Origin: Flavobacteriaceae bacterium
Lineage (GTDB): Bacteria > Bacteroidota > Bacteroidia > Flavobacteriales > Flavobacteriaceae
Length of the DNA stretch: 64,000 nucleotides
Direction of reading: 5' to 3'
Assembly (NCBI GenBank): GCA_019634365.1
Contig: JAHQVM010000007.1
Span: 1-64,000, forward strand
Part shown: positions 8,789 through 44,801 of the stretch, in pieces
How the letters are laid out: each line of letters starts with the position of its first letter
Position numbering within the stretch: position 1 is the first letter of the stretch
The notes under the pieces: model-generated
Seen by the model: the letters and a program-made list of their open reading frames with translations, nothing else
The model's database searches: none
What the model was told of the DNA's origin: nothing
Program-made: the position numbers and the translations under genes

Positions 8789-8949
8789 TGTTTAGAGTTT
8801 TAGTTGCCTAAATATTCCTCTAAACACTTATATATACAAAAGAATGGGACGAGTGACGATAAAAGGTTGACGAATAACAGAAGCCCAGGAATCCATCATT
8901 GCCATACAACAAGGGTCCTAAGCAAGTAAATGATAAATGCTAAGTATGT

Positions 8950-10746: not shown

Positions 10747-10891
10747 AGGTTCGTTCGTCCACCAATTAGGCCGCAAATATAGTGCAATTTAACTGCTTTT
10801 TTATTGAAATCTAGCCTATTGTTTCGCCCTCAGGGTGTAGGGTCATTTTAAAGATGCCCGAAATTGCCTTATGAAAGATTGCTAATTTGAG

Positions 10892-10899
10892 TATTTTTG
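10892..10899 (+). promoter_or_regulatory. Bacteroidota -7 promoter element (TATTTTTG, matches TAnnTTTG) upstream of dus
   Basis: tatttttg 8 nt upstream of ATG 10908; conflicts with the TTG start at 10887 given by the ORF track. Confidence 0.5.
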
Positions 10900-10907
10900 C
10901 ATCGACT

Positions 10908-23355: not shown

Positions 23356-26300
23356 TTGAACATTATGCAAAGAACCAAACGATTTCTAATGTTCTTGCTC
23401 TGTTTTGGCACCTTCTTTTATGGAGATGCCCAAAACTCAAGAATTCAGAAAAAGACGGTTTCCAAAGATGGAAACGCGAGCATTGTGGTTTTTCAGAAAA
23501 GTGATTCCTACACCGTGGGTGAGGTACAAAATTTCTTTGCTGAAGAGCTACAATTGGGAAATAATATGGAATTAAGGCAGGTAGATCTTACCACCGACCA
23601 ACTTTCCTTCGACCATTATACGTATCAGCAGTACTACAATGGAATTAAGGTAGAGCACGGAATCTATAAGATCCATGCGAGAGACAACCAATTGCAGGTA
23701 GCTAATGGAGAACACTTTAAAGTAGAATTAGCTTCAACAAGTACTTCGTTATCGGCTGAAGCTGCTTTGAGAACACTTTTAAGCAGAATAGGTGCTAAAT
23801 CCTATGTTTGGGAACATCCCGAAGCTGCTGCAGAGATGGATTATGAAAGACCAGAGGGTGAATTGGTTGTCCTTCCTGTAAAACAATCAGGTTCTGACAA
23901 CTATGAGTACTTTTTAACGTACAAGTTCGATATCTTTTCCAATGACCCCTTAGACAGGGCCCATTATTTTGTGAATGCCCGAACAGGTGTAGTAGTAGCC
24001 AAAGAACAGATCATGTGTACCGCGCCCGCAGAGACCATGTACAGCGGAGATCGCAATATTGAAACCCAAGCGGTTATTGGAAGTGGATTTACCCTCGTAG
24101 ACGTAACACGCGGAAGTGGAATTAGAACCCGCAATAATCAAGGAGCTGAGTTTTTCGATTTAAGTGGCGCGGTCATGTTTATTGACAATGACGATAACTG
24201 GACCGCAGCAGAATGGAATAATGCCAATCAGGATCAGGCGGCGTTGGATGCTCATTGGGGATTGGAGATGACCTATGATTACTTCAGCAATGTACATGGT
24301 AGAGATAGTTATGATGGCAATGGCGCATTAATTGATGCGTATGCCCATGTCAGTTTTTTCGGAAGCCCAAACAATGCAGCTTGGACAGGAAACAACATTG
24401 TATTTGGTGATGGCGATGGCTTCAATTTTAGCCCATTAACTTCCCTTGATGTTTGTGCACATGAAATGGCCCATGCAGTGGATCAATTTTCTTCGAATCT
24501 TACCTATCAAGATGAATCTGGTGCTTTAGACGAAGGACTAGCCGATATCTGGGGAGCTTGTGCCGAAAGCCTTTACGCACCAGAAAAAAGCCGTTGGCTC
24601 ATTGGTGAGGAAATTACATTATTTCAGTACGCGTTGCGGGATATGTCGAATCCAAATGCCCTTAATCTGCCAGACACTTATCATGGCAACTTCTGGTTTT
24701 TCGGATCGGGAGATAATGGGGGTGTTCATACGAACAGCAGTGTATTAAATCACTGGTTTTATTTACTTACTGAAGGTTCAGGAGCTACCGATGGGGTAAA
24801 TGACAATGGAGATGTGTTTAACGTGGTTGGAATCGGAATTCAAGATGCAGAGCAAATCACATACCGCATGGAAACGGTATATCTTACTGCCAGTTCCAAT
24901 TATGCAGATGCGCGGGAATATGGAATTCAATCTGCTATAGATCTCTTTGGGGAATGCTCTCAGCAGCACATATCAACTCAGAATGCATTTTACGCTGTGG
25001 GGATTGGTGAAGAATTTACCGACTGCTGCCCGTTTATCGACATGGTACGCCTTTGGGATGATTCCTATCAAAACCCATCGGGAGAAAGTGCAGATAACTA
25101 TACAGATTACACACAAGAAGCCTGTATCCCAATTTTTGAGACAGATGCGCCACAAATTAATATTGAGCCCTCTAGCGATGGTGTTTTCATAGCCATGTTC
25201 ATTGACCTAAATGGTGATGGAGATTTCTGTGATACCGATGAAGAGATGTTCAATGATTTTGTTGCTAGCGGGTCTGTGGGTGTAAGCTTTACCGATCTCA
25301 TCAATAATAACGACATTGTAGGAGATGAGATTGTGAGGGCTGTAGTGAGCGATAGCCCAATTACATGCAATGAAATACCAGTATGCGGTGAAGCAGAAGA
25401 TTATAGGCTATGCCCTCCTTGTGATGGTGGTACAGATGGATGTATGGACTTCAATTGTGAAGACTATACAGGTCTAATGGGCACTTCATGTGATGCCCAA
25501 TGCTATCACAATTTGCTCGATGGTTGGGGAGGATCGAATATTGATGGAGTTGCTTACAGAAACGACGACAGTATCGATGGTCCAGACGATTATTACTTGT
25601 TTATTGATGATGGAGGGTGTAGCAGTGCTGGTTCGTTTGTGTTTAATCACGACGACTTTGCCGGTGACTGGACAGAACGGGGAAAATGTATTTGTTTCGA
25701 TTTAAATGCGTTTCATGTGGGAAGCACCATTTCAGGATCAAGTAGTTTGCGCATTGGAAACGGTATAGATAATTGTACTTCCAATATAACAGCAACATTC
25801 GTATTGGATGATCCGATAAACGTAGCAGATGGTTGGGTAAATATATGTGCCCCTATTGGACTATCGGATGCCGGTGAGCTACCCAGTAACGATGTAGGCC
25901 ACTGGGTAATCAATACAGGCTCTACCACAGATTGGGACGCCCTCATTCAGAACGTACAGTCCCTGCTCTTTTACGTAGATGTAGATAGTGGAAACGAACA
26001 ATGGGGATTGGATAATATCTGTTTCGATCCTTGTATTGATTGTGAGGATGTAAACAGTGCCGACTTTACCGTAGTGCAGGAGTGCAGCAGTGAGGGTGTG
26101 ACCATTTCTGTTCAGGATTTCGAATTGTATACGGATTTCGGTGCAACGCACGAATGGTATATCCTATCCAGTCCTAACCAAGGAGCGGGGCCATACACCC
26201 CTGTGACCAGTACGACGACCACAGGACCAGGACCACATGTGTTGGCAACGGGATTGCCAGACACGTTGTATTATACGGTGTTCCATAAAGTGGTAACCGA

Positions 26301-27312
26301 AGATTGCGGCGAAATTTGTTTTGCCCGCGAAGTATGGTGTACGGGTCTTAAAACTGCCTCAAGATTCGCACCTGTGGATTGCTGTCTCATTTTCGAGCAT
26401 TGGCCCAATGGACCCGGAGAGCCAATCGAATTTACAGCTGAGTTCAATCATGAAATTACATTGGACAACACCATCAATGCTGTTCCTTTGTATGAATATG
26501 AGAACAACTCAAGCGTAGTTCACGAGTGGTATTTGTATTCACGTGATGAATTGAATGCAGGTGACTTTACATTTGTTACTATGCAAACAGGGGTGAACTT
26601 CAGTTGGGGTCCAGCCCAAGAAGGAGTTTATTATTTCCTATTGCACAAAGTAATCAGCGATTGTGGTGAAGTATGTTATATGCGTGCTATTTACAAGAGT
26701 AGATTTGCTGGTGAAGAGTGCGAGATTTGTGGCCCAATAGATTGTAGCTTTATCGACAATCCAAACCCAGAGTGTGAAACAACGCAACCCATCAACGTTC
26801 AGTATGTGGAAGGTTTCCTAACGTGGGATCCGGTTCCGGATGCACAAGGCTATATAGTAGAAAATGCTCAAGTATGGCCTACGGATTGCAGATGCGATGC
26901 GCCTAGTTCCATTGTTCCTTTCCAAACCATGGATACAAGTGTGCCAATCCCATTGGGCGATGGCAGATGCTATGTCCTGCAGGTTAGGGCAATCTGTGCC
27001 GATGGATCCGTTTCACTGCCTTCCGATTTGATATGCGTGGGTGGCCGAAAATTGAAAAAGCTTATTGCTACGGTCACACCTAACCCAACACATGGTGAAA
27101 TGGTGTTTAATGTGGAGACCGATGAAGCTTCTCCAGTTACCATTGAAGTATATAACTTCTATGGAGAATTGGTGAGATCATTCGCTACACAAACCACCAA
27201 TGATGAGGTAGGTTCGGTCTCTTGGGAAGGACCTGTCCTAAGAAAAGGCGTGTACTTTGTTAAATTTATTACCAACGAAGGAATCGCTACCAAGCGTGTA
27301 ATCGTACATTAA
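23356..27312 (+). CDS. M4-family (thermolysin-like) metallopeptidase, multidomain, T9SS-sorted
   Basis: Signal peptide; HEMAHAVDQFSSNL...ESGALDEGLADIWG; GEVED-like GEAEDYRLC; C-terminal T9SS type A sorting domain (VTPNPTHGEMVFNVETDEASPVTIEVYNFYGELV...GVYFVKFITNEGIATKRVIV). Confidence 0.92.
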   Translation: MNIMQRTKRFLMFLLCFGTFFYGDAQNSRIQKKTVSKDGNASIVVFQKSDSYTVGEVQNFFAEELQLGNNMELRQVDLTTDQLSFDHYTYQQYYNGIKVEHGIYKIHARDNQLQVANGEHFKVELASTSTSLSAEAALRTLLSRIGAKSYVWEHPEAAAEMDYERPEGELVVLPVKQSGSDNYEYFLTYKFDIFSNDPLDRAHYFVNARTGVVVAKEQIMCTAPAETMYSGDRNIETQAVIGSGFTLVDVTRGSGIRTRNNQGAEFFDLSGAVMFIDNDDNWTAAEWNNANQDQAALDAHWGLEMTYDYFSNVHGRDSYDGNGALIDAYAHVSFFGSPNNAAWTGNNIVFGDGDGFNFSPLTSLDVCAHEMAHAVDQFSSNLTYQDESGALDEGLADIWGACAESLYAPEKSRWLIGEEITLFQYALRDMSNPNALNLPDTYHGNFWFFGSGDNGGVHTNSSVLNHWFYLLTEGSGATDGVNDNGDVFNVVGIGIQDAEQITYRMETVYLTASSNYADAREYGIQSAIDLFGECSQQHISTQNAFYAVGIGEEFTDCCPFIDMVRLWDDSYQNPSGESADNYTDYTQEACIPIFETDAPQINIEPSSDGVFIAMFIDLNGDGDFCDTDEEMFNDFVASGSVGVSFTDLINNNDIVGDEIVRAVVSDSPITCNEIPVCGEAEDYRLCPPCDGGTDGCMDFNCEDYTGLMGTSCDAQCYHNLLDGWGGSNIDGVAYRNDDSIDGPDDYYLFIDDGGCSSAGSFVFNHDDFAGDWTERGKCICFDLNAFHVGSTISGSSSLRIGNGIDNCTSNITATFVLDDPINVADGWVNICAPIGLSDAGELPSNDVGHWVINTGSTTDWDALIQNVQSLLFYVDVDSGNEQWGLDNICFDPCIDCEDVNSADFTVVQECSSEGVTISVQDFELYTDFGATHEWYILSSPNQGAGPYTPVTSTTTTGPGPHVLATGLPDTLYYTVFHKVVTEDCGEICFAREVWCTGLKTASRFAPVDCCLIFEHWPNGPGEPIEFTAEFNHEITLDNTINAVPLYEYENNSSVVHEWYLYSRDELNAGDFTFVTMQTGVNFSWGPAQEGVYYFLLHKVISDCGEVCYMRAIYKSRFAGEECEICGPIDCSFIDNPNPECETTQPINVQYVEGFLTWDPVPDAQGYIVENAQVWPTDCRCDAPSSIVPFQTMDTSVPIPLGDGRCYVLQVRAICADGSVSLPSDLICVGGRKLKKLIATVTPNPTHGEMVFNVETDEASPVTIEVYNFYGELVRSFATQTTNDEVGSVSWEGPVLRKGVYFVKFITNEGIATKRVIVH

Positions 27313-28393: not shown

Positions 28394-29671
28394 TTACTGC
28401 TTTAATAGTTTGATCGTCTTAGTTCCTTGTTGAGTTGAAACTTGCGCGATGTACATTCCAGACTGTAATCTAGAAACATCCACAGGAACATCGGTTTGGT
28501 TGGGTGCCAATGTCATTACTTGTTGCCCAAGGATGTCGTATACCGAAATTTGAGTAATAGGCTCTTGAGAATTAACATTCCAATCGCTGTTCACAGGGTT
28601 AGGATAGGTTACAATGCTGGATGCATCGAAATCATCAAGACCAAGCACGGTATTGTTGTGTAGGTAAATATTATCTACGAATACCGTTCTAACTCCGGCA
28701 TCTGCTCCTACAACGGTAAGAACGAACTGACGCAATGCATCTCTTTGTTGTGTCACATCACCAGCATCGAAATCGGAGAGAGGAATATCGATGGAAACCC
28801 ACTCACCAAAAGTTGAAACTGGGTTAGTAAGCTCAAAAGCAGAAGTTTCCCCTGCATCCCCTACGTGGTTAGACCATTTAGGGTTGGCAATAAGACCAGT
28901 GGTTAATGAAGTATCCGTCCAGTAATCCATGTGAAAATGGGTCATAGCACTGGCATCAACAGTAGTACCCCAGTCTACCAAAAGGAAGCCAGGGTCTGGT
29001 TGAGTGAATACAATTTGTTGGAAATTATCACCTGCAACGTCTAGTTCTGTAATATCCAAAGTACCTACACCAAAGGCACCGAACACAACGTCTGCTTGAT
29101 CGGTATATGCATCGCTATAAATAGAGAATACGGCACTTGCATCTCTCGCTGGTGGAGTTGGTGCGGCTTCAGATGGCGTATCTCCTCCCGTACTACCCCC
29201 AACAACTAAGGATACGTTATCAATGACCACAATTCCCACTTCAGCGCCCATGTCGAATAGCACACGGCTGTTGGCCAATCCAAAAGAGGCTGTAAAAACC
29301 AATTCAAAGGTTTGTGTGGTTTCAGTTAAGGTAACAGTCTCGGTATTGGCAGTCCAAGGATCTTCATTAAGGCCAATACCTGCAATAATAGTTCGGGTTC
29401 CTGTTCCTGCATCGGTAGACGCATCGAATGTTAATGTATAGGTTTCACCCAATGTGATTTCAACACCTTGACTAAGGTTTACGTCGAACGGGTTTCCGGC
29501 AACAAGGACTTCAGCAAAATTGAAGCTGTTCCCACCATCGGTTTGTACGTTGAATGCGTTTCCAAACCAATCTACCATTCCTGATTCAAAATCTCCATTG
29601 GAAAGCAAGTTCTGCCCATAAGCAGTAATTCCAACAAAGATCATTGCGATTAATAGAGTAAATTTTCTCAT
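28394..29671 (-). CDS. Carbohydrate-binding (CBM4_9-like) secreted protein with T9SS type A sorting domain
   Basis: MRKFTLLIAMIFVGITAYGQ signal; NLLSNGDFESGMVDWFGNAFNVQTDGGNSF...FVDNIYL; C-terminal YPNPVNSDWNV...YDILGQQVMTL...GMYIAQVSTQQGTKTIKLLKQ. ORF-track start 29704 is likely 11 codons early. Confidence 0.85.
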   Translation of the reverse strand: MRKFTLLIAMIFVGITAYGQNLLSNGDFESGMVDWFGNAFNVQTDGGNSFNFAEVLVAGNPFDVNLSQGVEITLGETYTLTFDASTDAGTGTRTIIAGIGLNEDPWTANTETVTLTETTQTFELVFTASFGLANSRVLFDMGAEVGIVVIDNVSLVVGGSTGGDTPSEAAPTPPARDASAVFSIYSDAYTDQADVVFGAFGVGTLDITELDVAGDNFQQIVFTQPDPGFLLVDWGTTVDASAMTHFHMDYWTDTSLTTGLIANPKWSNHVGDAGETSAFELTNPVSTFGEWVSIDIPLSDFDAGDVTQQRDALRQFVLTVVGADAGVRTVFVDNIYLHNNTVLGLDDFDASSIVTYPNPVNSDWNVNSQEPITQISVYDILGQQVMTLAPNQTDVPVDVSRLQSGMYIAQVSTQQGTKTIKLLKQ

Positions 29672-30171
29672 AATGATTTTATTAATGTTATTGTTTTGTT
29701 TCATCAGCTATCTCCGTAATTCTCTCGCGAAACGATACCTTCATATGAAGCGCAGGTACAAGTGGGTTGAACTCAAAATTTGTTCGAAAATCATACATGA
29801 GCAGGTCCCATTTTTAATCACCTAAGTATCACATGGATAACTCACTATGCAAAAGAGTGCAAAAAAGCGCAGAATTGAAATTTTTTTACCTCAACATTTA
29901 TACAACATTAAGAGTTTATTAACACAACAATTGTTGCTTCTACCCAATTTAACAACCTCCAATAAGATTGAGTATAATGACAAAATATAGCCAGTAAAAC
30001 CGCGAAATCCCTAATAAAACTGTAAAAAAATTGCGAATGTATAGTTTTTGTTGACGGTCATAATTAGGTGTTTACCTTATTAATGTGATAATTTTAAACC
30101 ATAACAAAAGTATACAAACGTAATACAGCTTACGTTGGTAGAAGCAACACAATGCACATAAAGTTATTCAT

Positions 30172-33100
30172 ATGAAAAAGTACGTATTACCATTCGTTTT
30201 CATGTTACTATCAACCTCACTTATGGCACAAGCCAATAAAGTGAGTGTCTCTGAATCTGCAGATGGCAGCCGTTTGATGGTAGATGGAAAAGAGCTAATT
30301 GTGAATGGAATGAACTGGGACTATGTTCCCATTGGAACTACACTGGCAAGTACCTCCTATCAATTTTGGAACCAACCAGACGAAATTATAAGGGCAGCAT
30401 TGGATGCCGAAATGGCGCTATTGAAAAATATGGGCGTAAATGCCGTTAGGCAATATGTAGGTGTAAAGCCCAAATGGGTACAGTACATTTATGAGGAATA
30501 TGGTATTTATACCATGATCAATCATGCTTTCGGTCGTTATGGACTAACCCTTAATGGTACTTGGACGCCACATACGGATTATGCAGATCCTGAAACCAAA
30601 GCGCTTCTCATGAAAGAGGTGACAGATTTGGCCAATATGTACAAGGACACACCAGGGATCTTATTGTTTCTTCTGGGAAATGAAAACAATTATGGATTGT
30701 TCTGGGACGGAGCAGAAACTGAAGACATCCCAGAAGAGGATAGTAGAACAAAACCTCGGGCGAGAGCCATGTACAAACTCTTTAATGAGGCCACAGTGGC
30801 TATGAAAGAAATCATTAAGGATCGCCCAATTGCCATTTGTAATGGTGATTTGCTCTTCTTGGATATCATCGTAGAGGAATGTCCAGATATAGATATCTTC
30901 GGTACGAACATGTATCGTGGTGTCACCTTTACCGATGCCTTTGAAAAGGTAAAGAACGAATATGGTAAGCCGATACTTTTCACCGAATTTGGTGCAGATG
31001 CTTTTAATACCATTCAAAACCAAGAGGATCAAGAATCCCAGGCATTTTACATGGTCGAAAACTGGAAAGATATTTATGCCAATGCCGCAGGGATGGGAAG
31101 GGCCGGAAACTCCTTAGGAGGCTTTACCTTTCAATTCAGTGATGGATGGTGGAAATATGGTCAAACCAAAAATTTGGATATTCATGATAATAATGCCTCT
31201 TGGCCCAATGGAGGGTATTATAAGGACTTTGTTGAAGGGGAGAATAACATGAATGAGGAGTGGTTTGGAATCTGTGCCAAAGGACCCACCAATGAACAAG
31301 GGCTATACACCCTTTATCCAAGAGCCGCTTATTATGCATTAAAGGAAGCACATGAGTTTAATCCATACGCTATGGGCGAAACGGCAGAGAGCTTACAAAA
31401 TCATTTCAACGAGATACAGATTATTGATGCTGTGCTCCGTGCTCGAGGAGATAAGGCCGCTTCTGGCGGAAGCTCTGGCGGTAGTAAAATAAAAATTAGC
31501 ACCTTACGTGCAGAATTCACGACCTTCAATACGGGAGGTAAAAGTATCACCACACCCGAATCCCCGGATCCGAATGATCCCACGACTTTTCCGAACCAAC
31601 TAGGGTTCGATAATATGGAATCTTATTTTATTGGACTGGAGGGAAATCCAAGCCCAGGTTTGCGAGCAAGTGTTACGGCCAGTGTTCTTGGAAATGTTGC
31701 GGGTAACCCAATTAACGAGATTTTTTACGAAAATAGAGGGCGCCCATACATCGCAGAAACCACTGCAGGTGAAACCCTTATTACCGATAATAATAGAGTT
31801 CAGATATATCAGGCCGATCTTAACTGGAACAATAAGTATGCGAATGTAACTGGGTTCTATCGAACGGGTCATTACCATTGGGGATACGAAGGGGATTTCT
31901 TCGGATTGTATCCCGAAGCCAATTATGGTCCTAACTTGGATATCTATAATGGACGTGCACCCTTTGGGTTTGAGTTTGAAGGAAAGAAAGAATTGAGCGG
32001 GCTTAAAGTTGCTTTTGGTCCAGAACTTTGGTGGGGAGCTAACCCAGCGGTACTTGTAAAATATTCACGAAATTTTGGCGGTGTCGATGTAACCGGAGTT
32101 TTTCATGAGGACATTGCAGACCCAGGTGCGGCAGTTACCTCTATTGCCATTCCTCAACCTAGAACCCGAAGAGCTACGCTTTACGCAACTAAGACTTTCG
32201 GAAAGTTCGACGTGGAAGTTGGAGGTATTTGGGGAGGAGAACCTTTGAATGGTCGTGAATATCAAGTGGTAAAAACCGATGCCAATGGCGACATGAATGT
32301 GTTTGTTAATACGGTTACTTCGGATGATAACTGGGGAGGTAAGCTAAAAGTAAAGTATTCAGGAGGTAAATTCAACTGGTATGCCCAAGGTGCGGCCCAA
32401 GGCTTGGTTGCCAATGGTGGTGCCGATCTTACCAGAACATTTACGGGCTGGAGACTTAAAGACAGTGGAAGTGGAAACCAATATAACTTCCTAACTGGAT
32501 TCACATATACCATTGGGGATTTACAAATCGCACCTAACTTCATGTGGCAGGAACCCATTGTGGATCCTATCCCAATTGGAGCACCGGCACCTGCAAGGGC
32601 CCGAAATATTTTGGCAGATCCATTTGTGGTTAGATCCAACAGAAAAACAACAGCGGGGGAAATTCTCCTCACCTACGACCCAACACCGGCTTCATGGTTT
32701 TACGAATGGGATAACGACAGAGCGGAAGATGCCAAATTTGCTGCCAGTTTAGGGTTTGTATATCGTAGCTTGCCTACCACGCAAGATGCCGCCATCGGTT
32801 TCTTTGCAGGAAGTCGTACACCAACTGCTTTCGATGGAGCACCTCCGGCAGAAGATTTATGGGAGTTTAATGGACGAATCGTATCCAAAATCTCTCCCGA
32901 ATTTGGTTTAATTTCCAACTTCTTTGGTGGAAACGGACAGGCCAACGGAAGCGATGCTAGGGTAATTCACCGTTACGGTGCAGATGTGAGAATGATCTAT
33001 AAAAAGCTGAAGTTCACTACCGAAGTAAAAGTAGATGATTGGGGTCCTTTCGATTACCATCGAGACTTTAACCTTACGTATCCCTTCCAGTTCATGGCAG

Positions 33101-33291
33101 ATCTCTCAACGACAGTTGGAAAACCAGACTGGTTCATATTGCCGAATACACGATTGGGAATCCGATATACCTGGCGTTCCTTAGATAATTTCTCTCCAAG
33201 ATTCCTATATCAGGATCCCATAGATCAGGGATTCTCTAATGGAAATGAGTGGGAAATAAGAACATACATACACGTTAACATTGGAAAATAG
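30172..33291 (+). CDS. Clan GH-A glycosidase domain fused to C-terminal outer-membrane beta-barrel-like domain
   Basis: N-terminal TIM-barrel glycosidase motifs (GMNWDYVPIG, LFLLGNENNYGLFW acid/base region, PILFTEFGADAF nucleophile region); ASGGSSGGS linker at about 31455-31485; C-terminal ~600 aa with alternating amphipathic beta-strands (SYFIGLEGNP...WEIRTYIHVNIGK). Confidence 0.82.
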   Translation: MKKYVLPFVFMLLSTSLMAQANKVSVSESADGSRLMVDGKELIVNGMNWDYVPIGTTLASTSYQFWNQPDEIIRAALDAEMALLKNMGVNAVRQYVGVKPKWVQYIYEEYGIYTMINHAFGRYGLTLNGTWTPHTDYADPETKALLMKEVTDLANMYKDTPGILLFLLGNENNYGLFWDGAETEDIPEEDSRTKPRARAMYKLFNEATVAMKEIIKDRPIAICNGDLLFLDIIVEECPDIDIFGTNMYRGVTFTDAFEKVKNEYGKPILFTEFGADAFNTIQNQEDQESQAFYMVENWKDIYANAAGMGRAGNSLGGFTFQFSDGWWKYGQTKNLDIHDNNASWPNGGYYKDFVEGENNMNEEWFGICAKGPTNEQGLYTLYPRAAYYALKEAHEFNPYAMGETAESLQNHFNEIQIIDAVLRARGDKAASGGSSGGSKIKISTLRAEFTTFNTGGKSITTPESPDPNDPTTFPNQLGFDNMESYFIGLEGNPSPGLRASVTASVLGNVAGNPINEIFYENRGRPYIAETTAGETLITDNNRVQIYQADLNWNNKYANVTGFYRTGHYHWGYEGDFFGLYPEANYGPNLDIYNGRAPFGFEFEGKKELSGLKVAFGPELWWGANPAVLVKYSRNFGGVDVTGVFHEDIADPGAAVTSIAIPQPRTRRATLYATKTFGKFDVEVGGIWGGEPLNGREYQVVKTDANGDMNVFVNTVTSDDNWGGKLKVKYSGGKFNWYAQGAAQGLVANGGADLTRTFTGWRLKDSGSGNQYNFLTGFTYTIGDLQIAPNFMWQEPIVDPIPIGAPAPARARNILADPFVVRSNRKTTAGEILLTYDPTPASWFYEWDNDRAEDAKFAASLGFVYRSLPTTQDAAIGFFAGSRTPTAFDGAPPAEDLWEFNGRIVSKISPEFGLISNFFGGNGQANGSDARVIHRYGADVRMIYKKLKFTTEVKVDDWGPFDYHRDFNLTYPFQFMADLSTTVGKPDWFILPNTRLGIRYTWRSLDNFSPRFLYQDPIDQGFSNGNEWEIRTYIHVNIGK

Positions 33292-33297
33292 AAAGAG

Positions 33298-35139
33298 ATG
33301 AATAAGATAGTATCAAATAAGACACTTGGTTATCTAATGGCCCTTGTACTCGTAGTGATTGGCTCTAGTTGTGAACCAGATGAAAGTAGTCTAACAGAAG
33401 CGACGTTTCCAAATATTCCAGAAATTTTTATCGATGGCTTTAGTGCTGGATTGCAATATGACGCCTTCGGAACATCCAAGGTCACGGCCTTTCAAGTAGA
33501 TGCCGATATGGTATTCGAAGGCTCCTTGGCGATGCGATTTGACATACCTAATACAAGCGATCCAGAGGGTGGATTTGCTGGAGGTGTTTTCTCTACTGGA
33601 GTGGGAAGAAACCTTACTGGTTACAATGTGCTTAGCTTTTATGCAAGAGCCTCCAAAGGGGAAACCATCAACGAAATTGGATTCGGTTTAACCTTTCAAG
33701 GTGAGGTTTACAGAACGCAGGTCTTCAATGTACAAGTAGGTACCGCCTGGCAGAAGTATTACATTCCTATACCCGATGCGGCCAAACTTACTGAGGAACG
33801 TGGGATGTTATGGATCGCCGAAGCAGCCGATAATGGTGAAGCTTACCAATTATGGATTGACGAGGTTAAATTCGAAAATACCAATACGGTTTTAAAAGAG
33901 GAATCTTTCATATTTGATGGTCAAAATCTTGTAACGGCTGCCAACCCAGGGAACACAGTACCTGTTACTGGAACATTCGCCGATTATAACCTACCCAATG
34001 GATTGGTTCAACGGGTATTCACAACTCCAGCCTTCTTTACATATACCTCTTCGAACGAAGCGGTAGCCACGGTTGATGAATTTGGGGTGATATCCGTAAA
34101 TAGTGCCTCTGGTGCGACCACAATTACGGCGACGCTGGATGGTGCAGCGACCACAGGATCTATAGTGATTACGGAAGTAGATGCTTCTGGAAACGTAGAT
34201 GATTCCGATGCTACCGAAGTGGCTTTACCTCTAGGTTTTCAGTCCACAACCCTTAATTACAACCCCATTGGATTCGAAGGTGCTGTCCCATCCTTAGCAG
34301 CGAATCCCGTAGTAGGAGGCTTGAATAATAGCTCCACGGCTTTGAGATCGCTTAAGAGCCAGGGATCTGTATTCTTTGCAGGTCAATTTATAGATTTGGA
34401 TGTCCCTGTAGATTTTTCAGAAACACAATTAATAAGTGCCTTGGTACTATCGCCCAATGCCGGTACTCCAGTAAGACTTGCTTTAGAGAATAGTCAAGAT
34501 GCAGGTACGCAAATTAGAGTAGACTTATTAACCAGTACTGCTAATGAGTGGGAAGAATTGGTTTACGATTTCAGTGCATTGGTAAATCCTGCCGTGGATT
34601 ATGATAGATTAGTAATCATTTTTGATATCGATGAGGCCAATCCAACACCTGGAGATGGTTCGGTATACTTTATCGATGATATTCAACTCACCGATGACGA
34701 CGGAGGTGGTGGAGACGGGGATAATCTACTTACCAATGGAGATTTTGAACAAGGAGCCTCCGCTTGGTTTGGAAATGCATTCAATGTACAAACCGATGGC
34801 GGTAACAGTTTCAACTTTGCCGATATTGAAGTAGCTGGAAATCCATTCGATGTAAACTTAAGTCAAGGGGTAGAAATAGTTCAAGGCCAATCGTACACAT
34901 TAACCTTTGATGCTGCCACAGATGCCGCTACAGGTTCACGAACAATAATTGCTGGTATAGGGCTTAATGAGTCTCCATTCACTGCAGACACAGAGACAGT
35001 CACACTTACAGAGACGCTACAGACCTTTGAGTTAACATTTACTGCCTCATTTGGACTAGCCAATAGCCGTGTGCTATTCGATATGGGTGCAGAAGTGGGA
35101 GTTGTTGTTATTGACAATGTATCACTTACCCAAAACTAG
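33298..35139 (+). CDS. Multi-CBM surface lipoprotein (candidate surface glycan-binding protein)
   Basis: Lipobox IGSSC; CBM11-like first domain, Ig-like/Big_2 region (TSSNEAVATVDEFGVISVNSASGATTITATLDG), further binding-type domain, C-terminal CBM4_9-like NLLTNGDFEQ...DNVSL. Confidence 0.8.
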   Translation: MNKIVSNKTLGYLMALVLVVIGSSCEPDESSLTEATFPNIPEIFIDGFSAGLQYDAFGTSKVTAFQVDADMVFEGSLAMRFDIPNTSDPEGGFAGGVFSTGVGRNLTGYNVLSFYARASKGETINEIGFGLTFQGEVYRTQVFNVQVGTAWQKYYIPIPDAAKLTEERGMLWIAEAADNGEAYQLWIDEVKFENTNTVLKEESFIFDGQNLVTAANPGNTVPVTGTFADYNLPNGLVQRVFTTPAFFTYTSSNEAVATVDEFGVISVNSASGATTITATLDGAATTGSIVITEVDASGNVDDSDATEVALPLGFQSTTLNYNPIGFEGAVPSLAANPVVGGLNNSSTALRSLKSQGSVFFAGQFIDLDVPVDFSETQLISALVLSPNAGTPVRLALENSQDAGTQIRVDLLTSTANEWEELVYDFSALVNPAVDYDRLVIIFDIDEANPTPGDGSVYFIDDIQLTDDDGGGGDGDNLLTNGDFEQGASAWFGNAFNVQTDGGNSFNFADIEVAGNPFDVNLSQGVEIVQGQSYTLTFDAATDAATGSRTIIAGIGLNESPFTADTETVTLTETLQTFELTFTASFGLANSRVLFDMGAEVGVVVIDNVSLTQN

Positions 35140-35162: not shown

Positions 35163-36038
35163 ATGATGAAATTGAAAAATGTTTTAAGAATGGCTCTGGT
35201 TTGTGGCGCACTAATTGCCACAACATGGAGCTGCACGGACGACGAAGGTAATTCGATCGGAATCAATGAATCCAATCTACGGTTGGTTTTTGAAGATGAT
35301 TTTAATGGAACCGAAGGTACATCCATTAATACAGATGTTTGGAACTTCGATATCGGAAATGGTGATAATGGATGGGGAAATCAAGAATTGCAATATTATA
35401 CGAACCGTCCAGAGAACATTGCCTTGGATGGACAAGGGAATATGGTAATCACAACAAGAAGGGAATCTTTCTCGGGTTCTGAATTCACTTCTGCAAGGAT
35501 CAACACCAAAGATAAGTTCGAACAGCAATATGGCCGATTTGAAGCCAGAATCAAGATGCCCGGAGGACGCGGTATTTGGCCAGCATTTTGGATGTTGGGA
35601 AGTCCTATTGAAACAACACCGGATGATGACCCAACTACGGAACCTTGGCCCTTTATTGGCGAGATCGATGTAACAGAGTTGCGTGGTCAGGAACCGTCAT
35701 TAAGTATCGGAAGTATTCACGGACCAGGATACTCTGGGGGGGGAGCGATTTCAGGCACCTTCGAACTCGAAGGAGAACGCTTCGATGCCGATTTCCATGT
35801 CTTTGCCGTGGAATGGACAGCCGACTACATTGACTATTTCATAGATGGTGTAAGATACAACCGAATTGCTCGCAAGGATATTCCCGATGGGTCAGATTGG
35901 CCTTTCGACGACCATCCATTCTTTGTTTTATTGAATGTAGCTGTAGGTGGTGGATTTGTTGGATTCCCAGTAGATCAAACCCCTTTCCCACAGACCATGG
36001 TTGTGGACTACGTTCGCGTGTATGAGATTGTAGAATAA
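35163..36038 (+). CDS. GH16 endo-beta-1,3-glucanase (laminarinase-type), lipoprotein
   Basis: Lipobox TWSC; WNFDIGNGDNGWGNQELQYYT and GEIDVTELRG (GH16 ExDxxE signature). Confidence 0.94.
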   Translation: MMKLKNVLRMALVCGALIATTWSCTDDEGNSIGINESNLRLVFEDDFNGTEGTSINTDVWNFDIGNGDNGWGNQELQYYTNRPENIALDGQGNMVITTRRESFSGSEFTSARINTKDKFEQQYGRFEARIKMPGGRGIWPAFWMLGSPIETTPDDDPTTEPWPFIGEIDVTELRGQEPSLSIGSIHGPGYSGGGAISGTFELEGERFDADFHVFAVEWTADYIDYFIDGVRYNRIARKDIPDGSDWPFDDHPFFVLLNVAVGGGFVGFPVDQTPFPQTMVVDYVRVYEIVE

Positions 36039-36121: not shown

Positions 36122-39100
36122 ATGACCCATTCGTCTATACATATCGGAAGCACCTCAGCTTCAACCATTCAAAAAGAAGTAAAAGGAGCGCTCATAACCA
36201 TCGGAAATGAGCAGTACTACAAAATTTCCAATAGCAACGCCATGCGGCCATTTTTAATGAGTCTCGTGAGCGATTCGGACCATTGGATGTTTATTTCCAG
36301 CAATGGTGCCCTTACGGCTGGAAGGAAAAATTCTGACTATTCTCTTTTTCCGTACTATACCGACGATAAGATCACGGAATCTTCAGAAATAACAGGGAGC
36401 AAGAGCATATTTAAGGTAACCCGGGATGGGAAATCTTACCTATGGGAACCTTTTTCGGAAAGGTATCAGGGGATATACGATATTACCCAGAATCTTTATA
36501 AAAACGCATTTGGGAACAAAGTCATTTTTGAAGAACACAACGAGAAGCTGGGTCTTACCTTCCGCTATCAATGGAGCTATAGTAATTCGTATGGTTTTGT
36601 AAGAAAATGTGATCTAATAAATACCCAAGAAACGTCAGTTCAAGTAACGATGTTGGATGGGGTTCAGAATGTGATACCCTATGGGGTTGGCGCAGATCTG
36701 CAAAATGCAAGCAGCAATTTGGTTGATGCCTATAAGCGAAGCGAATTAATTCCTGATTGTGGATTGGGAATCTACGCATTGAGTGCTATCATTGTAGATC
36801 GGGCAGAACCCAGTGAAGCCCTCAAATGCAATACGGTTTGGTCGTTAGGAATCGACCATCCCACGTATTTGTTGTCCTCACAACAATTGGAGGCATTTAG
36901 GCTTGGCGATACCATTATTCAGGAAGAAGATGTAAAAGCAGAAAAGGGGGCTTATTTTATACAAGCGACCTATACCCTAGCATCAAGTCAGGAAAAGCAG
37001 TGGATGTTAGTCGCTGAGGTAAATCAGTCTATGAATGCCGTGATTGCAATGGCCGATAAATTGCGCAGTGCGGACAATCTTTGGCAGTTGATCGAACAGG
37101 ATATTGATCTGGGAACCGAGAAACTGAAACAACTTACAGGTTCATCAGATGCTATGCAGCTTAGTGCCAATAAGCTGCGAAACCTGAGGCATTATTCCAA
37201 CACGCTTTTCAATATTATGCGAGGCGGGATTTTCGACAACAACTATCAGATAGAAAAATGGGATTTTATGGACTATATGTCCAAAGCCAACAAACAGGTT
37301 TTTATTGATTCCAAGCATTTGTGGGATGAGTTGCCGGAATCCTTTTCTCAGGAAAAACTTAAATCGCTGGCGTATGCTAGTAGCGACAGGAACTTTAGGA
37401 GATTATCCCTAGAGTACATGCCCCTAAAATTTAGCAGAAGGCATGGGGATCCCAGTCGCCCATGGAATAAATTTTCCATCAATACCCGAAATGAAATAGA
37501 TGGCTCCAAAATTTTGGATTATGAAGGAAACTGGCGGGATATTTTCCAAAACTGGGAAGCCCTTTCACTTTCATTCCCGGAGTTTTTGGAAAGTATGATT
37601 CATAAATTCCTGAATGCCACAACCTTCGATGGGTACAATCCTTATAGGGTAACCAAAGATGGATTTGATTGGGAGGCCATCGAGGAGCATGACCCCTGGT
37701 CTTATATTGGATATTGGGGTGATCATCAGATCATTTATTTACTGAAGTTCTTGGAGATATTGGAAGATCATTATCCTGGAAAATTGGCAGGGTATTTTAG
37801 TCAGGACTTATTTGTTTATGCCGATGTACCCTATAAAATAAAACCCTACGAAGATATTCTTAAAGACCCCAAAGACACTATAGATTTCGATTATGAGTCG
37901 GATAAAAGCATACGGGAGAAAAGATCGGAATTGGGAGCAGACGGAGCCTTATTAAGAAATGCCAAGCAGGTCATTCATAAAGTAAACTTTATTGAAAAGA
38001 TATTGGCAACTGTACTGGCCAAGATGTCCAATTTTATTCCTGAAGGAGGAATTTGGATGAATACCCAAAGGCCGGAATGGAATGATGCCAACAACGCATT
38101 GGTGGGTAATGGGGTCTCTATGGTAACACTGTGCTATCTGAGACGATTCCTTACTTTTTTTGGTAAAGTAATCCAACAAGCTACCGATGATTCGGTAGCG
38201 ATTTCGGAAGAGCTTTACCATTTTTATGAAACTGTAGTCGCAACGCTGGATCAGCACAAGTCCATACTTTCTGGACGAGTTTCCAATGCTGACAGAAAAA
38301 CGGTATTGGATGGTTTGGGACAAGCTGCGAGCCAATATCGTTGGCAAATTTATGACCAAACCTTCTCTGGCAACATGAAACAGATTTCCTTAAAAGACTT
38401 GGCCTTGTTCATCGAAACAGCCTGTTCGTATTTGGAACATTCCATAGAGGCAAATAAGCGTTCCGATGACATGTACCACGCTTATAACTTGATGACCGTA
38501 AAGGGCAATGAGGTAGCAATTAGCTACCTGCAGGAAATGTTGGAAGGACAAGTAGCCGCTTTAAGTTCCGGGTACCTTAGCTCGGAAGAAAGCTTGGAGC
38601 TACTGGACGGACTCAAAGCGAGTGCATTATTTCGGGACGATCAATATAGCTATCTACTTTATCCCAATAAAGCCCTACCCAAGTTTTTGGAGAAAAATAC
38701 AATTCCGAAGGAAGCGATCGAGAAATCGGAACTTCTAAACGAATTAATCGAAAATAAAAATGGGGCTATTGTTCAGAAAGACCTTCATGGGCACTATCAT
38801 TTTAATGGCAATTTTAACAACGCCAACAGCCTCAATGCAGCGTTGGATGCCCTGGAAAGTAGTTCTTATGGTGCGAAGGTGAAAAAGGACCGACAAATGC
38901 TATTGGACACTTTTGAGGAAGTCTTCAACCATAAGGCTTTTACAGGTAGATCGGGAACCTTCTATGGGTACGAAGGTTTGGGTTCCATTTACTGGCATAT
39001 GGTGTCCAAATTATTGGTAGCCACGCAAGAAGTATGCTTAAAAGCCATCCGGGAAGGGGCATCAGCAGAAATTACAGGTCGATTATTGGAACATTACTAT

Positions 39101-39592
39101 GAGATCAACGAAGGGATTGGCGTGCACAAATCACCCAAACTGTATGGAGCTTTTCCAACAGATCCCTATTCGCATACACCCGCAGGAAGAGGTGCTCAAC
39201 AACCCGGAATGACCGGACAAGTTAAGGAAGACATCCTTTGCCGGTTTGGGGAGTTGGGAGTTTTTGTGGAAAAGGGCAGCTTGTTCTTTGATCCTTGCAT
39301 GCTTCGCAAAACTGAATTCTTGAAGGAGTCTAAGTCATTTGCATATGTAGACGTCTCGGGCGATGCGCAGGAGATTTCCGTACCCAACGATTCCATCTGT
39401 TTCACCTATTGCCAGGTCCCTGTGATTTACCGCATTTCCGAAAATGAATTCCTTTCGGTGCATCATTCAGATGGAAGTGTACAGCAATATGACGGGTTGA
39501 AATTGGATCAGAATTCCAGTCATGACCTCTTTAAACGATCTGGAAAAATAACGATGATCGTGGCGGGGGTCCTGAAAACAGCATTAAAGTAA
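36122..39592 (+). CDS. GH149-like beta-1,3-oligoglucan phosphorylase
   Basis: ~1156 aa, no signal peptide; GH94/GH149-like sequence (YSNSYGFVRKCDLINTQETSVQVTMLDGVQNVIPYGV, GGIWMNTQRPEWNDANNALVGNGVSMVTLCYLRR, GRGAQQPGMTGQVKEDILCRFGELG); located in a beta-glucan locus. Confidence 0.82.
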   Translation: MTHSSIHIGSTSASTIQKEVKGALITIGNEQYYKISNSNAMRPFLMSLVSDSDHWMFISSNGALTAGRKNSDYSLFPYYTDDKITESSEITGSKSIFKVTRDGKSYLWEPFSERYQGIYDITQNLYKNAFGNKVIFEEHNEKLGLTFRYQWSYSNSYGFVRKCDLINTQETSVQVTMLDGVQNVIPYGVGADLQNASSNLVDAYKRSELIPDCGLGIYALSAIIVDRAEPSEALKCNTVWSLGIDHPTYLLSSQQLEAFRLGDTIIQEEDVKAEKGAYFIQATYTLASSQEKQWMLVAEVNQSMNAVIAMADKLRSADNLWQLIEQDIDLGTEKLKQLTGSSDAMQLSANKLRNLRHYSNTLFNIMRGGIFDNNYQIEKWDFMDYMSKANKQVFIDSKHLWDELPESFSQEKLKSLAYASSDRNFRRLSLEYMPLKFSRRHGDPSRPWNKFSINTRNEIDGSKILDYEGNWRDIFQNWEALSLSFPEFLESMIHKFLNATTFDGYNPYRVTKDGFDWEAIEEHDPWSYIGYWGDHQIIYLLKFLEILEDHYPGKLAGYFSQDLFVYADVPYKIKPYEDILKDPKDTIDFDYESDKSIREKRSELGADGALLRNAKQVIHKVNFIEKILATVLAKMSNFIPEGGIWMNTQRPEWNDANNALVGNGVSMVTLCYLRRFLTFFGKVIQQATDDSVAISEELYHFYETVVATLDQHKSILSGRVSNADRKTVLDGLGQAASQYRWQIYDQTFSGNMKQISLKDLALFIETACSYLEHSIEANKRSDDMYHAYNLMTVKGNEVAISYLQEMLEGQVAALSSGYLSSEESLELLDGLKASALFRDDQYSYLLYPNKALPKFLEKNTIPKEAIEKSELLNELIENKNGAIVQKDLHGHYHFNGNFNNANSLNAALDALESSSYGAKVKKDRQMLLDTFEEVFNHKAFTGRSGTFYGYEGLGSIYWHMVSKLLVATQEVCLKAIREGASAEITGRLLEHYYEINEGIGVHKSPKLYGAFPTDPYSHTPAGRGAQQPGMTGQVKEDILCRFGELGVFVEKGSLFFDPCMLRKTEFLKESKSFAYVDVSGDAQEISVPNDSICFTYCQVPVIYRISENEFLSVHHSDGSVQQYDGLKLDQNSSHDLFKRSGKITMIVAGVLKTALK

Positions 39593-39603
39593 AAACCAAA
39601 GAA

Positions 39604-40911
39604 ATGAACGCAAGAATAGCAATAGGAAGGAGTACGTTATTGAGTATGGCGATGGTTGCCATTTTCACCTTCTTTTTTGTTTCTTGCAAAGATGCAAAGC
39701 CCGAAAAAGGGGAACAATTAATAGAGAAAAAAGTGACTGCTAAAGACATCTTAGGAAACCCAGCGTATTTAGCCATATCCTATGGAGGATATCGCACTAC
39801 GTCCAGGGAAAATCAGCCTACCCTAGATGAGCTGAAAGAAGATTTATTGATTCTGCATGCCATGGGCATAAGGGTTCTTAGAACGTACAATGTACAATTT
39901 CCGCATGCTGGGAATGTACTCAAAGCGGTTCGAGAACTCAAAGCTTCAGATCCAGCATTTGAAATGTACGTAATGCTTGGAGCATGGATCGATTGTTTGA
40001 ATGCATGGACCGAACATCCACCCAATCACGATGTAGAAAGTCCCAATAATGCCGACGAAATAGACCGTGCTGTGGCACTTGCCCAAGAATATCCAGAAAT
40101 TGTTATTGTTCTGGCAGTAGGGAATGAGGCCATGGTGAAATGGGCGGCCAGTTACTACGTGCAACCCGGAGTAATATTAAAATGGGTTAACCACCTTCAA
40201 GCGCTAAAAAAGGACGGTCAATTACCAGAAACTCTTTGGATCACAAGTTCGGATGATTTCGCCTCATGGGGAGGAGGTGATCCTTTATATCATACCGAAG
40301 ATCTTAAGAAATTGGTAAAAGCAGTGGATTATATTTCGATGCATACCTACCCTTACCACAATTCGCATTACAATCCTGAGTTTTGGATCACTCCGCAAGA
40401 AGATGAAGAGTTACCCAATTTAGACAAGGTAAACAGCGCTATGAATCGCGCCAAGCAATTTGCCATCAAGCAGTATGATTCAGTAAGCTCGTTTATGAAA
40501 AGCTTAGGGGTAGAAAAACCCATACATATTGGAGAAACTGGATGGGCTACCATCTCGGATGGATTGTATGGGCCCTCAGGTTCCAAAGCTACCGATGAAT
40601 ACAAGCAAGCCCTTTATTATCAGCATATGCGAGAGTGGACCAACGCCAACGGCATATCGTGTTTCTATTTTGAGGCGTTCAACGAGCCTTGGAAAGATGC
40701 AGGTAACCCCGTAGGATCTGAGAATCACTTTGGGTTATTTACCGTGGATGGAAAGGCGAAGTATGTGTTGTGGGATTTGGTCGATAAAGGTGTTTTTAAG
40801 GATTTAACCCGGGGCGGAAATACGATTGAGAAAACCTATGAAGGGAGCAGGGATTCATTGCTCATTGAAGTGGCCGCTCCTCCTTCTAACCCAATGATGG
40901 TAAAACACTGA
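39604..40911 (+). CDS. GH17 family glycosidase, lipoprotein
   Basis: Lipobox FVSC; LAVGNEAMVKW acid/base region, IHIGETGWATISD nucleophile region. Confidence 0.88.
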   Translation: MNARIAIGRSTLLSMAMVAIFTFFFVSCKDAKPEKGEQLIEKKVTAKDILGNPAYLAISYGGYRTTSRENQPTLDELKEDLLILHAMGIRVLRTYNVQFPHAGNVLKAVRELKASDPAFEMYVMLGAWIDCLNAWTEHPPNHDVESPNNADEIDRAVALAQEYPEIVIVLAVGNEAMVKWAASYYVQPGVILKWVNHLQALKKDGQLPETLWITSSDDFASWGGGDPLYHTEDLKKLVKAVDYISMHTYPYHNSHYNPEFWITPQEDEELPNLDKVNSAMNRAKQFAIKQYDSVSSFMKSLGVEKPIHIGETGWATISDGLYGPSGSKATDEYKQALYYQHMREWTNANGISCFYFEAFNEPWKDAGNPVGSENHFGLFTVDGKAKYVLWDLVDKGVFKDLTRGGNTIEKTYEGSRDSLLIEVAAPPSNPMMVKH

Positions 40912-42461: not shown

Positions 42462-44801
42462 ATGTCAACAACTACTAAAAAAGTTCCATTCGGTCAAAAA
42501 ATAGCCTTCGGGATAGGAATGTTTGCCAACCAAATGTTCCCTGCGATTTTAGGAATATTTATGGTTGTGTTGGTTGAAGACCTAAAATTTACAGGTTTAA
42601 TGTGGGCCATGATTTATCTTTTCCCACGACTCTTTGATGCTATTTCGGATCCAGTAATGGGTTTTATATCTGACAATACAAAATCCAAATGGGGCCGTAG
42701 AAGACAGTATGTTCTTGTAGGAGGAATCATTATGGGGGTAGCCTATATTTTTATGTGGCAATTGTTCAAAGAGAATACCGTACAGTACAATTTTTGGTAT
42801 TTCTTTTTGTGGTCGGTTGTGTTTTATCTAGGACTTACCTTCTTCAGTGTGCCTTACGTTGCCATGGGTTATGAAATGAGTGATGATTTCCATGAACGTA
42901 CCAGTATTATGGCCGTAGCACAATGGATTGGTCAGTGGGCTTGGGTAATTGCACCCTTATTTTGGATTATCATGTATGATCCTGAGTGGTTTCCTTCAGC
43001 AGATGTTGCAGCGAGAAAATTAGCCGTTTGGGTGGCGATCCCGTGCGCTTTTTGTGCAATAGTACCCGCTCTTTTCATAAAAAGTGAATCTACACTCGAT
43101 AAGGATTACGAACCATTGAGTTTATCCAATATTGGAGGGAGTCTCAAAAAGATATTGACCAGTTTTGTAGAAGCATTCAGAATTAAAGAATTTAGACAAT
43201 TGTGTTTTTCCACTTTCTTTATTTACAACGCCTTTATGGCGGTTTCGTCTCTTACCTTTTTTGTAATCGTATACAAACTATTTAATGGTGACGCTGGAGC
43301 TTCTGGATGGTGGGTGTCTTTGTTTGGCGCACTGGGCGCATTAGGAACAACCTTTATCGTAATTCCAATAGTAACCAAACTATCCAAAAAATTTGGAAAA
43401 AAGAAGGCATTTATGATATGCCAGAGCATATCAATCGTAGGATACTTTATGCTTTATTTCTTGTTCATTCCAGGTAAACCTTGGATGTACATCATTGCCC
43501 TACCCTTTTTCTCATTCGGAATTGGAAGTTTGTTCACGGTTATGATGTCCATGACGGCTGATGTAATCGACATAGATGAACTGAATTCTGGTAAACGACG
43601 TGAAGGTATTTTTGGCGCCATCTATTGGTGGATGGTGAAAGTAGGATTTGCCATTGCAGGGGCATTTAGTGGATTAATCATTTGGTTGGTTGGTTTTAAT
43701 TCAGACTTACCTACTACAGAACAGATGGGTGCTGTTGAAGGATTGCATGCTTTTTTCTGCTTCTTTCCTATGCTAGGAACCTTTGCGGCCATGTATGTGA
43801 TGCGTAACTATAACGTTACTGAAGAACGGGCAAATGAGATTAGGGAGCAATTGGAAAAGCGAAAAACACCCGAAGCAAAGCTCTCGTCCAATTACGAAAA
43901 CTTCAAGTTCGACTCGTTGAGACATGGAGGTATTGTGGTAGACACATCAAAGGATATTGATTTTTCATCCAAATCGGAAAGCGAGATTGCGCAACTTTTT
44001 AAAACTACTTTAGAACGTGGTATGCATGGGTTGTGTTTTAGTCCTTATACCGAAGGACAAAATATTGGAGATCAATTATCTGAAGAACAGATTCGACGCA
44101 GGATGGATGTGGTCGCTCCTTACACCAAATGGGTGCGTTCCTTTTCCTGTACAGAAGGGAATGAATTCATTCCAAAAGTAGCGCATGAAAAAGGCTTACA
44201 GACGATGGTCGGTGCATGGATTGGCAAGGATAAGTCGAAAAACGAAGAAGAGATTAATGCTCTCATTTCATTAGCGAAAGAAGGCATGGTCGATATAGCA
44301 GTGGTTGGTAATGAGGTGCTGTTGCGAAACGACCTTGATACCCAGGAAATTGTGAGGTACATCCGCCGTGTGAAGGAAGCCATACCCAACATTCCTGTGG
44401 GCTATGTGGATGCGTACTATCAATATTACGAAAATAGAGAGCTCATAGAAGCCAGCGACCTTATCCTGGTGAACTGCTACCCTTTCTGGGAAGGTTGTAG
44501 CGTAGAAGATGCATCCAAGTACATACGACAGATGCACGCCATTACAAAAGAGATTTCCCAGAATACCCCAATCATCATTACTGAAACAGGTTGGCCAAAT
44601 CAAGGAGAAAACAACCATGGGGCACAACCTTCAAAAGTGAATGCCATGAAATATTTCATACATGTGAATCAATGGGCGAAAGAAGAGGGCATACCGCTAT
44701 TCTATTTCTCGTCCTTCGACGAATCCTGGAAGGTACATCATGAAGGTGATGTGGGAGCCCGTTGGGGAATTTGGGATAAAAATGAATCATTAAAATACTA
44801 G
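42462..44801 (+). CDS. GPH-type MFS sugar transporter fused to C-terminal GH17 domain
   Basis: N-terminal ~460 aa MelB/GPH-like transporter (FPRLFDAISDPVMGFISDNTKSKWGRRRQYVL); C-terminal ~300 aa GH17 (IAVVGNEVLLRND, IIITETGWPNQG, LFYFSSFDESWK). Confidence 0.92.
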   Translation: MSTTTKKVPFGQKIAFGIGMFANQMFPAILGIFMVVLVEDLKFTGLMWAMIYLFPRLFDAISDPVMGFISDNTKSKWGRRRQYVLVGGIIMGVAYIFMWQLFKENTVQYNFWYFFLWSVVFYLGLTFFSVPYVAMGYEMSDDFHERTSIMAVAQWIGQWAWVIAPLFWIIMYDPEWFPSADVAARKLAVWVAIPCAFCAIVPALFIKSESTLDKDYEPLSLSNIGGSLKKILTSFVEAFRIKEFRQLCFSTFFIYNAFMAVSSLTFFVIVYKLFNGDAGASGWWVSLFGALGALGTTFIVIPIVTKLSKKFGKKKAFMICQSISIVGYFMLYFLFIPGKPWMYIIALPFFSFGIGSLFTVMMSMTADVIDIDELNSGKRREGIFGAIYWWMVKVGFAIAGAFSGLIIWLVGFNSDLPTTEQMGAVEGLHAFFCFFPMLGTFAAMYVMRNYNVTEERANEIREQLEKRKTPEAKLSSNYENFKFDSLRHGGIVVDTSKDIDFSSKSESEIAQLFKTTLERGMHGLCFSPYTEGQNIGDQLSEEQIRRRMDVVAPYTKWVRSFSCTEGNEFIPKVAHEKGLQTMVGAWIGKDKSKNEEEINALISLAKEGMVDIAVVGNEVLLRNDLDTQEIVRYIRRVKEAIPNIPVGYVDAYYQYYENRELIEASDLILVNCYPFWEGCSVEDASKYIRQMHAITKEISQNTPIIITETGWPNQGENNHGAQPSKVNAMKYFIHVNQWAKEEGIPLFYFSSFDESWKVHHEGDVGARWGIWDKNESLKY

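Follow-up and report, generated by a model that had tools for sequence, protein, structure and literature searches.

A glycoside hydrolase fused to a predicted 24-strand outer-membrane barrel, a candidate import gate for laminarin-type glucans in Bacteroidota

We found that one gene of a Flavobacteriaceae bacterium (GCA_019634365.1), at 30172-33291 on the plus strand of the 64,000-nucleotide stretch of contig JAHQVM010000007.1 analysed here ("the window"), encodes a 1039-aa protein in which a signal peptide and a clan GH-A hydrolase are joined to a predicted 24-strand outer-membrane (OM) beta-barrel. Fusions of this kind make up a widespread, conserved family, present in hundreds of Bacteroidota, and their locus is, by gene content, a conserved beta-1,3-glucan catabolic operon, without SusC and SusD in 84 of 87 cases. 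With a sugar-binding surface lipoprotein as its partner, the fusion probably serves as a gate through which laminarin-type glucans are imported. With some reserve, we favour the more specific proposal that it is an enzyme-coupled OM channel for beta-1,3-glucan (laminarin-type) fragments, its barrel and partner replacing SusC and SusD.

The reading frame runs unbroken from the ATG at 30172 through a stop codon whose last base is 33291, and the gene is single-copy in the 3.29-Mb draft genome, which is 88.6% complete. The product begins with a Sec signal peptide (residues 1-20, ending in LMAQ; 30172-30231) that has no lipobox and forms a helix over residues 2-17 in the AF2 model. There follow a GH158-like/GH2-like TIM-barrel domain (residues 21-424; 30232-31443), a connecting segment (residues 425-439; 31444-31488) that leads from a conserved helix end, RGDKAA, through the Gly/Ser linker proper (residues 431-438; 31462-31485) into strand 1, and the 24-strand barrel (residues 440-1039; 31489-33288). 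Fused proteins keep the RGDKAA helix end, which decays where the barrel is missing. Pfam and NCBIfam-type domain searches found no T9SS sorting domain in the fusion (no Por_Secre_tail), unlike in the neighbour at 28394-29704, which has a Por_Secre_tail. An earlier note on this DNA had described the uninterrupted frame with its signal peptide, a TIM-barrel glycosidase with the motifs LFLLGNENN and ILFTEFG, a Gly/Ser linker at about 31455-31485, and a C-terminal part of some 600 aa, free of a T9SS domain, that it took for an OM barrel. Each of these points was borne out, the last as a prediction from a 24-strand AF2 model and OM-barrel fold matches, and the note's interpretation is supported; missing from it were the obligate partner lipoprotein, the relationship to GH158 and the breadth of the family.

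Residues 440-1039 gave no Pfam match, even at E 5, and no sequence relative in the PDB; searching the PDB and PHROG with the barrel sequence returned nothing useful, and no relative with known transport was found among its sequence kin. The case for a barrel comes from structure prediction, in which the AF2 models rested on 75-79 close homologues. A barrel-only model built from 75 sequences reached a pLDDT of 78.5 and a pTM of 0.76 and contains 24 long strands; the model of the full-length fusion is of modest confidence (pTM 0.57). When the barrel model was compared with the PDB by Foldseek, the 50 matches listed were OM barrels only: TonB-dependent receptors (Cir, BtuB), OprC, MOMP, OccAB3, AlgE, Omp32 and FimD. 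TM-scores were low (0.2-0.4), the best to the query among the matches listed being 0.38 for the 24-strand usher FimD, so the barrel resembles the OM-barrel class and no particular member of it. An alternating-hydrophobicity score, taken against each sequence's own shuffles, gave z 3.6 for the C-terminal half and -1.2 for the enzyme domain, but carries little weight because it fails to separate known SusC barrels (only 0.8 to 2.5) from a CBM lipoprotein (2.4). All structural computations run point to an OM beta-barrel as the C-terminal half.

Read from the DSSP string, the connections between strands are by turns short (median 2) and long (median about 23 residues); they measure 2, 3, 6, 2, 2, 2, 2, 21, 2, 2 and 12 residues on the side that receives the hydrolase and 20, 36, 34, 9, 18, 30, 26, 30, 29, 7, 11 and 19 on the opposite side. 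As a rule, OM barrels have short turns in the periplasm and long loops outside; because the hydrolase joins the barrel at its short-turn end, it would sit at the periplasmic side of the barrel. The long-loop side bears a long, conserved, aromatic-rich loop, GFYRTGHYHWGYEGDFFGLYPEANYGPN, whose aromatics may stack with sugar rings. Pfam identified no TonB plug in the fusion (no Plug match); in the SusC of a comparison locus (L096) Plug and CarboxypepD_reg both match, and neither does so in the fusion.

In the hydrolase domain, Pfam Glyco_hydro_2_C matches residues 77-282 with a score that exceeds the gathering cut-off (E 3.4e-7), and PGAP annotates the fusion as 'GH2'. The GH2 N-terminal sugar-binding and Ig domains are absent, Glyco_hydro_2_C being the only match, with about 75 residues ahead of it. 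Foldseek placed the GH158 endo-laminarinases 6pal and 9p26 at the top for the AF2 model, and a profile built from just the hydrolase domain matched BuGH158 (6pal) at E 3.6e-8, GH158(Pro) at 1e-4 and GH2 enzymes at 0.002. In the profile alignment GNE, within LFLLGNENN and holding the acid/base E171, and TEFG, within ILFTEFG and holding the nucleophile E272, are in register with the catalytic pair of BuGH158, which is backed by mutagenesis (PMC7157763), and both residues are invariant across 79 sequences; the fusion has the GH158-type TIM barrel with its N-E acid/base and E nucleophile. With the GH158 endo-beta-1,3-glucanases (BuGH158, 6pal; GH158(Pro)) it shares fold, catalytic pair and type of locus, whereas sequence similarity is low (that same profile E of 3.6e-8) and the fusion has an OM barrel where BuGH158 ends in an Ig-like domain (PMC7157763).

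A scan of genome contigs yielded at least 580 confirmed relatives, and the 80 named relatives kept from these span five Bacteroidota classes (Flavobacteriia, Cytophagia, Saprospiria, Chitinophagia and Bacteroidia) at 62-80% identity. All 80 of the 80 are intact fusions, which rules out the fusion being a product of chance or artefact. Among 396 genomes sampled across the phylum we found 33 intact fusions (two or more in draft contigs), two decaying remnants and no intact barrel without a hydrolase. For Flavobacteriaceae, the hydrolase matched in 91 of 398 genomes, nearly always within a long open frame of fusion size, and about a fifth of the sampled genomes have the gene. In the gut species Bacteroides finegoldii the copy carries the annotation 'glycoside hydrolase family 2 TIM barrel-domain containing protein'; it belongs to a fusion-partner-GH16 module without SusCD (L183, NZ_OY725931.1, 10738-13872), on a record that is labelled plasmid but is probably a chromosomal piece, since it has rpsA and a valine--tRNA ligase gene. 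Two further loci are irregular: in one (L138, 1271-4173, genome G501) stops break the fusion gene and a transposase-like ORF lies just downstream of the remaining barrel piece, and in another (L098, 8504-11779, genome G091) a divergent 1092-aa protein combines a related segment of TIM barrel with a weak match to an AMPK-type CBM, and no barrel relationship was seen in it.

Downstream of the fusion on the plus strand lie the partner lipoprotein (33298-35139); a GH16 endo-beta-glucanase lipoprotein whose start reads SC-TDDE and which is the sole GH16 that the genome was found to have (35163-36038); a GH149 beta-1,3-glucan phosphorylase without a signal peptide (36122-39592; NCBIfam NF058639 equivalog, 1781 bits); and, by domain search, a GH17 lipoprotein (39604-40911), a GH30 of the side-chain beta-1,6-glucosidase type, going by the family activity in PMC13188888 (40914-42413), an MFS (GPH-type) sugar transporter fused to GH17 (42462-44801) and a second GH17 without a signal peptide (44809-45717). 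On the minus strand follows a regulator with Reg_prop, Y_Y_Y and a LuxR/sigma4-like HTH (45714-48617), whose family lies near the fusion in 51 of 81 loci (the 80 kept loci plus the window). The usual order in these 81 is regulator, fusion, lipoprotein, GH16, GH149, GH17, GH30, MFS; the lipoprotein, present in 81, always follows the fusion (81/81), and GH16 is found in 72, GH149 in 56, GH17 in 54, GH30 in 40 and MFS in 39. Upstream of the operon a long metallopeptidase-like ORF has a T9SS-like C-terminal tail (23356-27312).

SusC and SusD are absent from the window. Across the 81 loci they occur within the flanks of three (L028, L085, L093), a count that stays at three among the 54 loci flanked by 7 kb or more in each direction, and a search by eye for TonB receptors among other large neighbours found none. 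Three SusC genes in the genome scored over the cut-off, all on other contigs and none beside beta-glucan enzymes (one adjoins a fructan-type set, two are without beta-glucan enzymes); at 88.6% completeness, the assembly may have missed a SusCD laminarin locus. The locus is not a polysaccharide utilization locus (PUL) in the strict sense of a susCD pair with CAZymes, a pair found in three of 87 fused loci.

The partner has a lipid Cys25, a family-specific N-terminal domain, a Big_2-like stretch and a C-terminal CBM_4_9; SusD_RagB, which matches the SusD of L096, has no match in it, CBM_4_9 and weaker matches being all that was found. Its N-terminal domain was present in 87 of 87 fused loci and in none of 12 barrel-less loci. 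Judging from the acidic-rich residues that follow the lipid Cys across the family, and from the resemblance of its CBM_4_9 to that of the T9SS-exported protein at 28394-29704 (minus strand), the partner is probably at the cell surface, where it may capture glucan fragments at the pore mouth. The close similarity of these two CBM_4_9 domains (28394-29704 and 34723-35073) suggests a domain duplication.

The hydrolase lacks a barrel at twelve loci (L096, L129-L137, L176 and L177); L175 was left out of this set because its contig ends inside the gene, and is probably a fused locus with SusCD. SusC/SusD lie near the barrel-less gene in four of 11 loci with usable context (L096, L131, L176 and L177, the last with SusD alone within the stretch) versus three of 87 fused loci (Fisher p 0.003), and within Flavobacteriaceae in 3/3 versus 2/39 (Fisher p 0.0009), tests that treat loci as independent. 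A phylogeny-aware sign test on independent pairs did not reach significance (median p 0.25), having too few pairs and a tree that includes L175. As SusCD stands beside the fusion in 3/87 loci, the two are not mutually exclusive, and outside Flavobacteriaceae most barrel-less loci have no nearby SusCD (some flanks are incomplete). In one genus the two arrangements occupy the same site after tpiA-prmA-clpS: genome G203 has regulator-SusC-SusD-lipoprotein-GH16-hydrolase-GH149, and G965 has GH16-regulator-fusion-lipoprotein-GH16 without SusCD. At L129 the hydrolase is followed by a stop codon, beyond which remnants of the first barrel strands can still be read; at this locus, then, the barrel disappeared in situ. 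Barrel presence and absence require about 8 changes on the tree, 7 of them forced by well-supported branches, and loss has therefore probably been repeated, although in the outermost pair (L136/L137) a barrel may never have been present. At L177, in the locus with SusD, the hydrolase domain is fused to GH16 instead of to a barrel (8882-10936).

The route that we propose is as follows. The polymer would be cut by the surface GH16 lipoprotein; its fragments would be caught at the mouth by the partner lipoprotein, cross the wide 24-strand barrel, and be cleaved as they emerge by the GH158-like domain, held on its short linker under the periplasmic opening. Cleavage at the exit, we propose, would keep the flow inward by hydrolysis and not by TonB. 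Periplasmic GH17 and GH30 would finish the trimming, the MFS-GH17 fusion would move sugars across the inner membrane, the cytoplasmic GH149 would phosphorolyse the remainder, and barrel and partner would take the places of SusC and SusD. That the fusion may substitute for SusC/SusD, as the earlier note had suggested, is consistent with the gene content of the SusC/SusD-free operon and with the SusC/SusD found in a subset of barrel-less loci.

Alternatively, the barrel could be a mere membrane anchor for the hydrolase, the fragments entering by other porins. Barrel-less orthologues, several of them lipoproteins, do occur beside otherwise similar enzyme sets, and so the enzyme can work without a barrel. 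However, a 600-aa barrel of 24 strands would be costly where a lipid tail suffices, it is strongly conserved down to its long loop, and the partner lipoprotein is missing wherever the barrel is missing, which makes a simple anchor unlikely. Display of the hydrolase outside the cell as a passenger, with the barrel as its translocator, would fit the order of the domains, catalytic N-terminal and barrel C-terminal, and the conserved helix 417-435 before strand 1 could in principle thread the pore. Autotransporter barrels, however, have 12 strands and this one has 24, so it is not a 12-strand type V translocator; no autotransporter family of Pfam matches the fusion, few flexible residues separate the helix from strand 1, and barrel-less forms with a plain Sec signal and no T9SS tag (e.g., L096) are most simply periplasmic, and we regard such display as quite improbable. 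The appearance of AlgE among the listed fold matches, and the existence of porin-type exporters with periplasmic domains, might suggest a process akin to exopolysaccharide secretion, with the barrel exporting a glucan that the hydrolase trims as it leaves, but this is very hard to reconcile with an operon that is catabolic (phosphorylase, laminarinases, sugar importer and a Reg_prop/LuxR-type regulator) and in which neither a glycosyltransferase nor a polymerase was seen. A soluble beta-sandwich or CBM array in the C-terminal half, the outcome that the earlier note had set against its own reading, was looked for and deserves almost no credence: the modest confidence of the full-length model would allow it, but the structure models and fold searches rule it out, the barrel-only model and all listed matches being OM barrels, with no CBM or Ig family of Pfam matching this half and with the crude alternation score pointing the same way.

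The channel reading invites comparison with the SusC/SusD importers of Bacteroidota, which likewise pair a large OM barrel with a surface glycan-binding lipoprotein, encoded next to each other in a glycan operon that also has a surface GH16, and which occupy the same locus in one species of a fusion carrier's genus. The fusion differs in having no plug, no carboxypeptidase-like N-terminal domain and no SusD fold, in its 24 strands as against 22 in SusC, and in the catalytic domain at the plug position. Slightly short of an even chance, in our estimate, is the broader view that it represents a class of OM glycan importer additional to porins and to the TonB-dependent SusCD: a 24-strand pore with a hydrolase at the plug position and its own lipoprotein partner, driven by cleavage at the exit instead of by TonB, that can trade places with SusCD in the beta-1,3-glucan operons of Bacteroidota, a gut Bacteroides included. 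If transport is shown, the fusion would be a separate importer class, and it allows a direct test of hydrolysis at the exit of a pore as a replacement for TonB energy.

Laminarin PULs of North Sea bacteria ('variant 1') and of Muricauda lutaonensis comprise the same enzymes, GH149, GH17, GH30 and GH16 (PMC10108472, PMC13188888), and the accessible sections of these reports mention neither a barrel nor an OM route through one; the M. lutaonensis cluster, as listed there, includes a 'GH2' gene and names no SusC/D (PMC13188888). Laminarin loci without susCD have been remarked on as such (PMC10108472, PMC10811738 and PMC5827456). If the proposed gate exists, 'CAZyme clusters without susCD' gain a candidate OM route. 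The GH0 proteins of the variant 1 PULs could be relatives. Loci and uptake are called by whether SusC/SusD are present (PMC6298971), and laminarin is said to make up more than 10% of each year's fixed carbon dioxide (PMC11345257); if a SusCD-free gate is this common, SusCD-keyed surveys miss part of the flux.

In the open-access literature, as far as its texts were available and with subscription literature outside the scope, no OM route of this kind has been proposed, and no glycosidase-porin fusion appears. The one fusion of related design found there is Cyc2, a fused cytochrome-porin with an N-terminal catalytic/redox domain on an OM porin, whose domain is a small cytochrome that serves electron transfer in iron oxidation (PMC8406198). 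Fusion of an enzyme to a transporter in a laminarin operon is also known from FbGH17b, the MFS-GH17 protein of Formosa (PMC6246565), which, unlike the OM barrel fusion, is alpha-helical and resides in the inner membrane. The same fusion at 42462-44801 in the window forms an inner-membrane counterpart to the enzyme-transporter theme.
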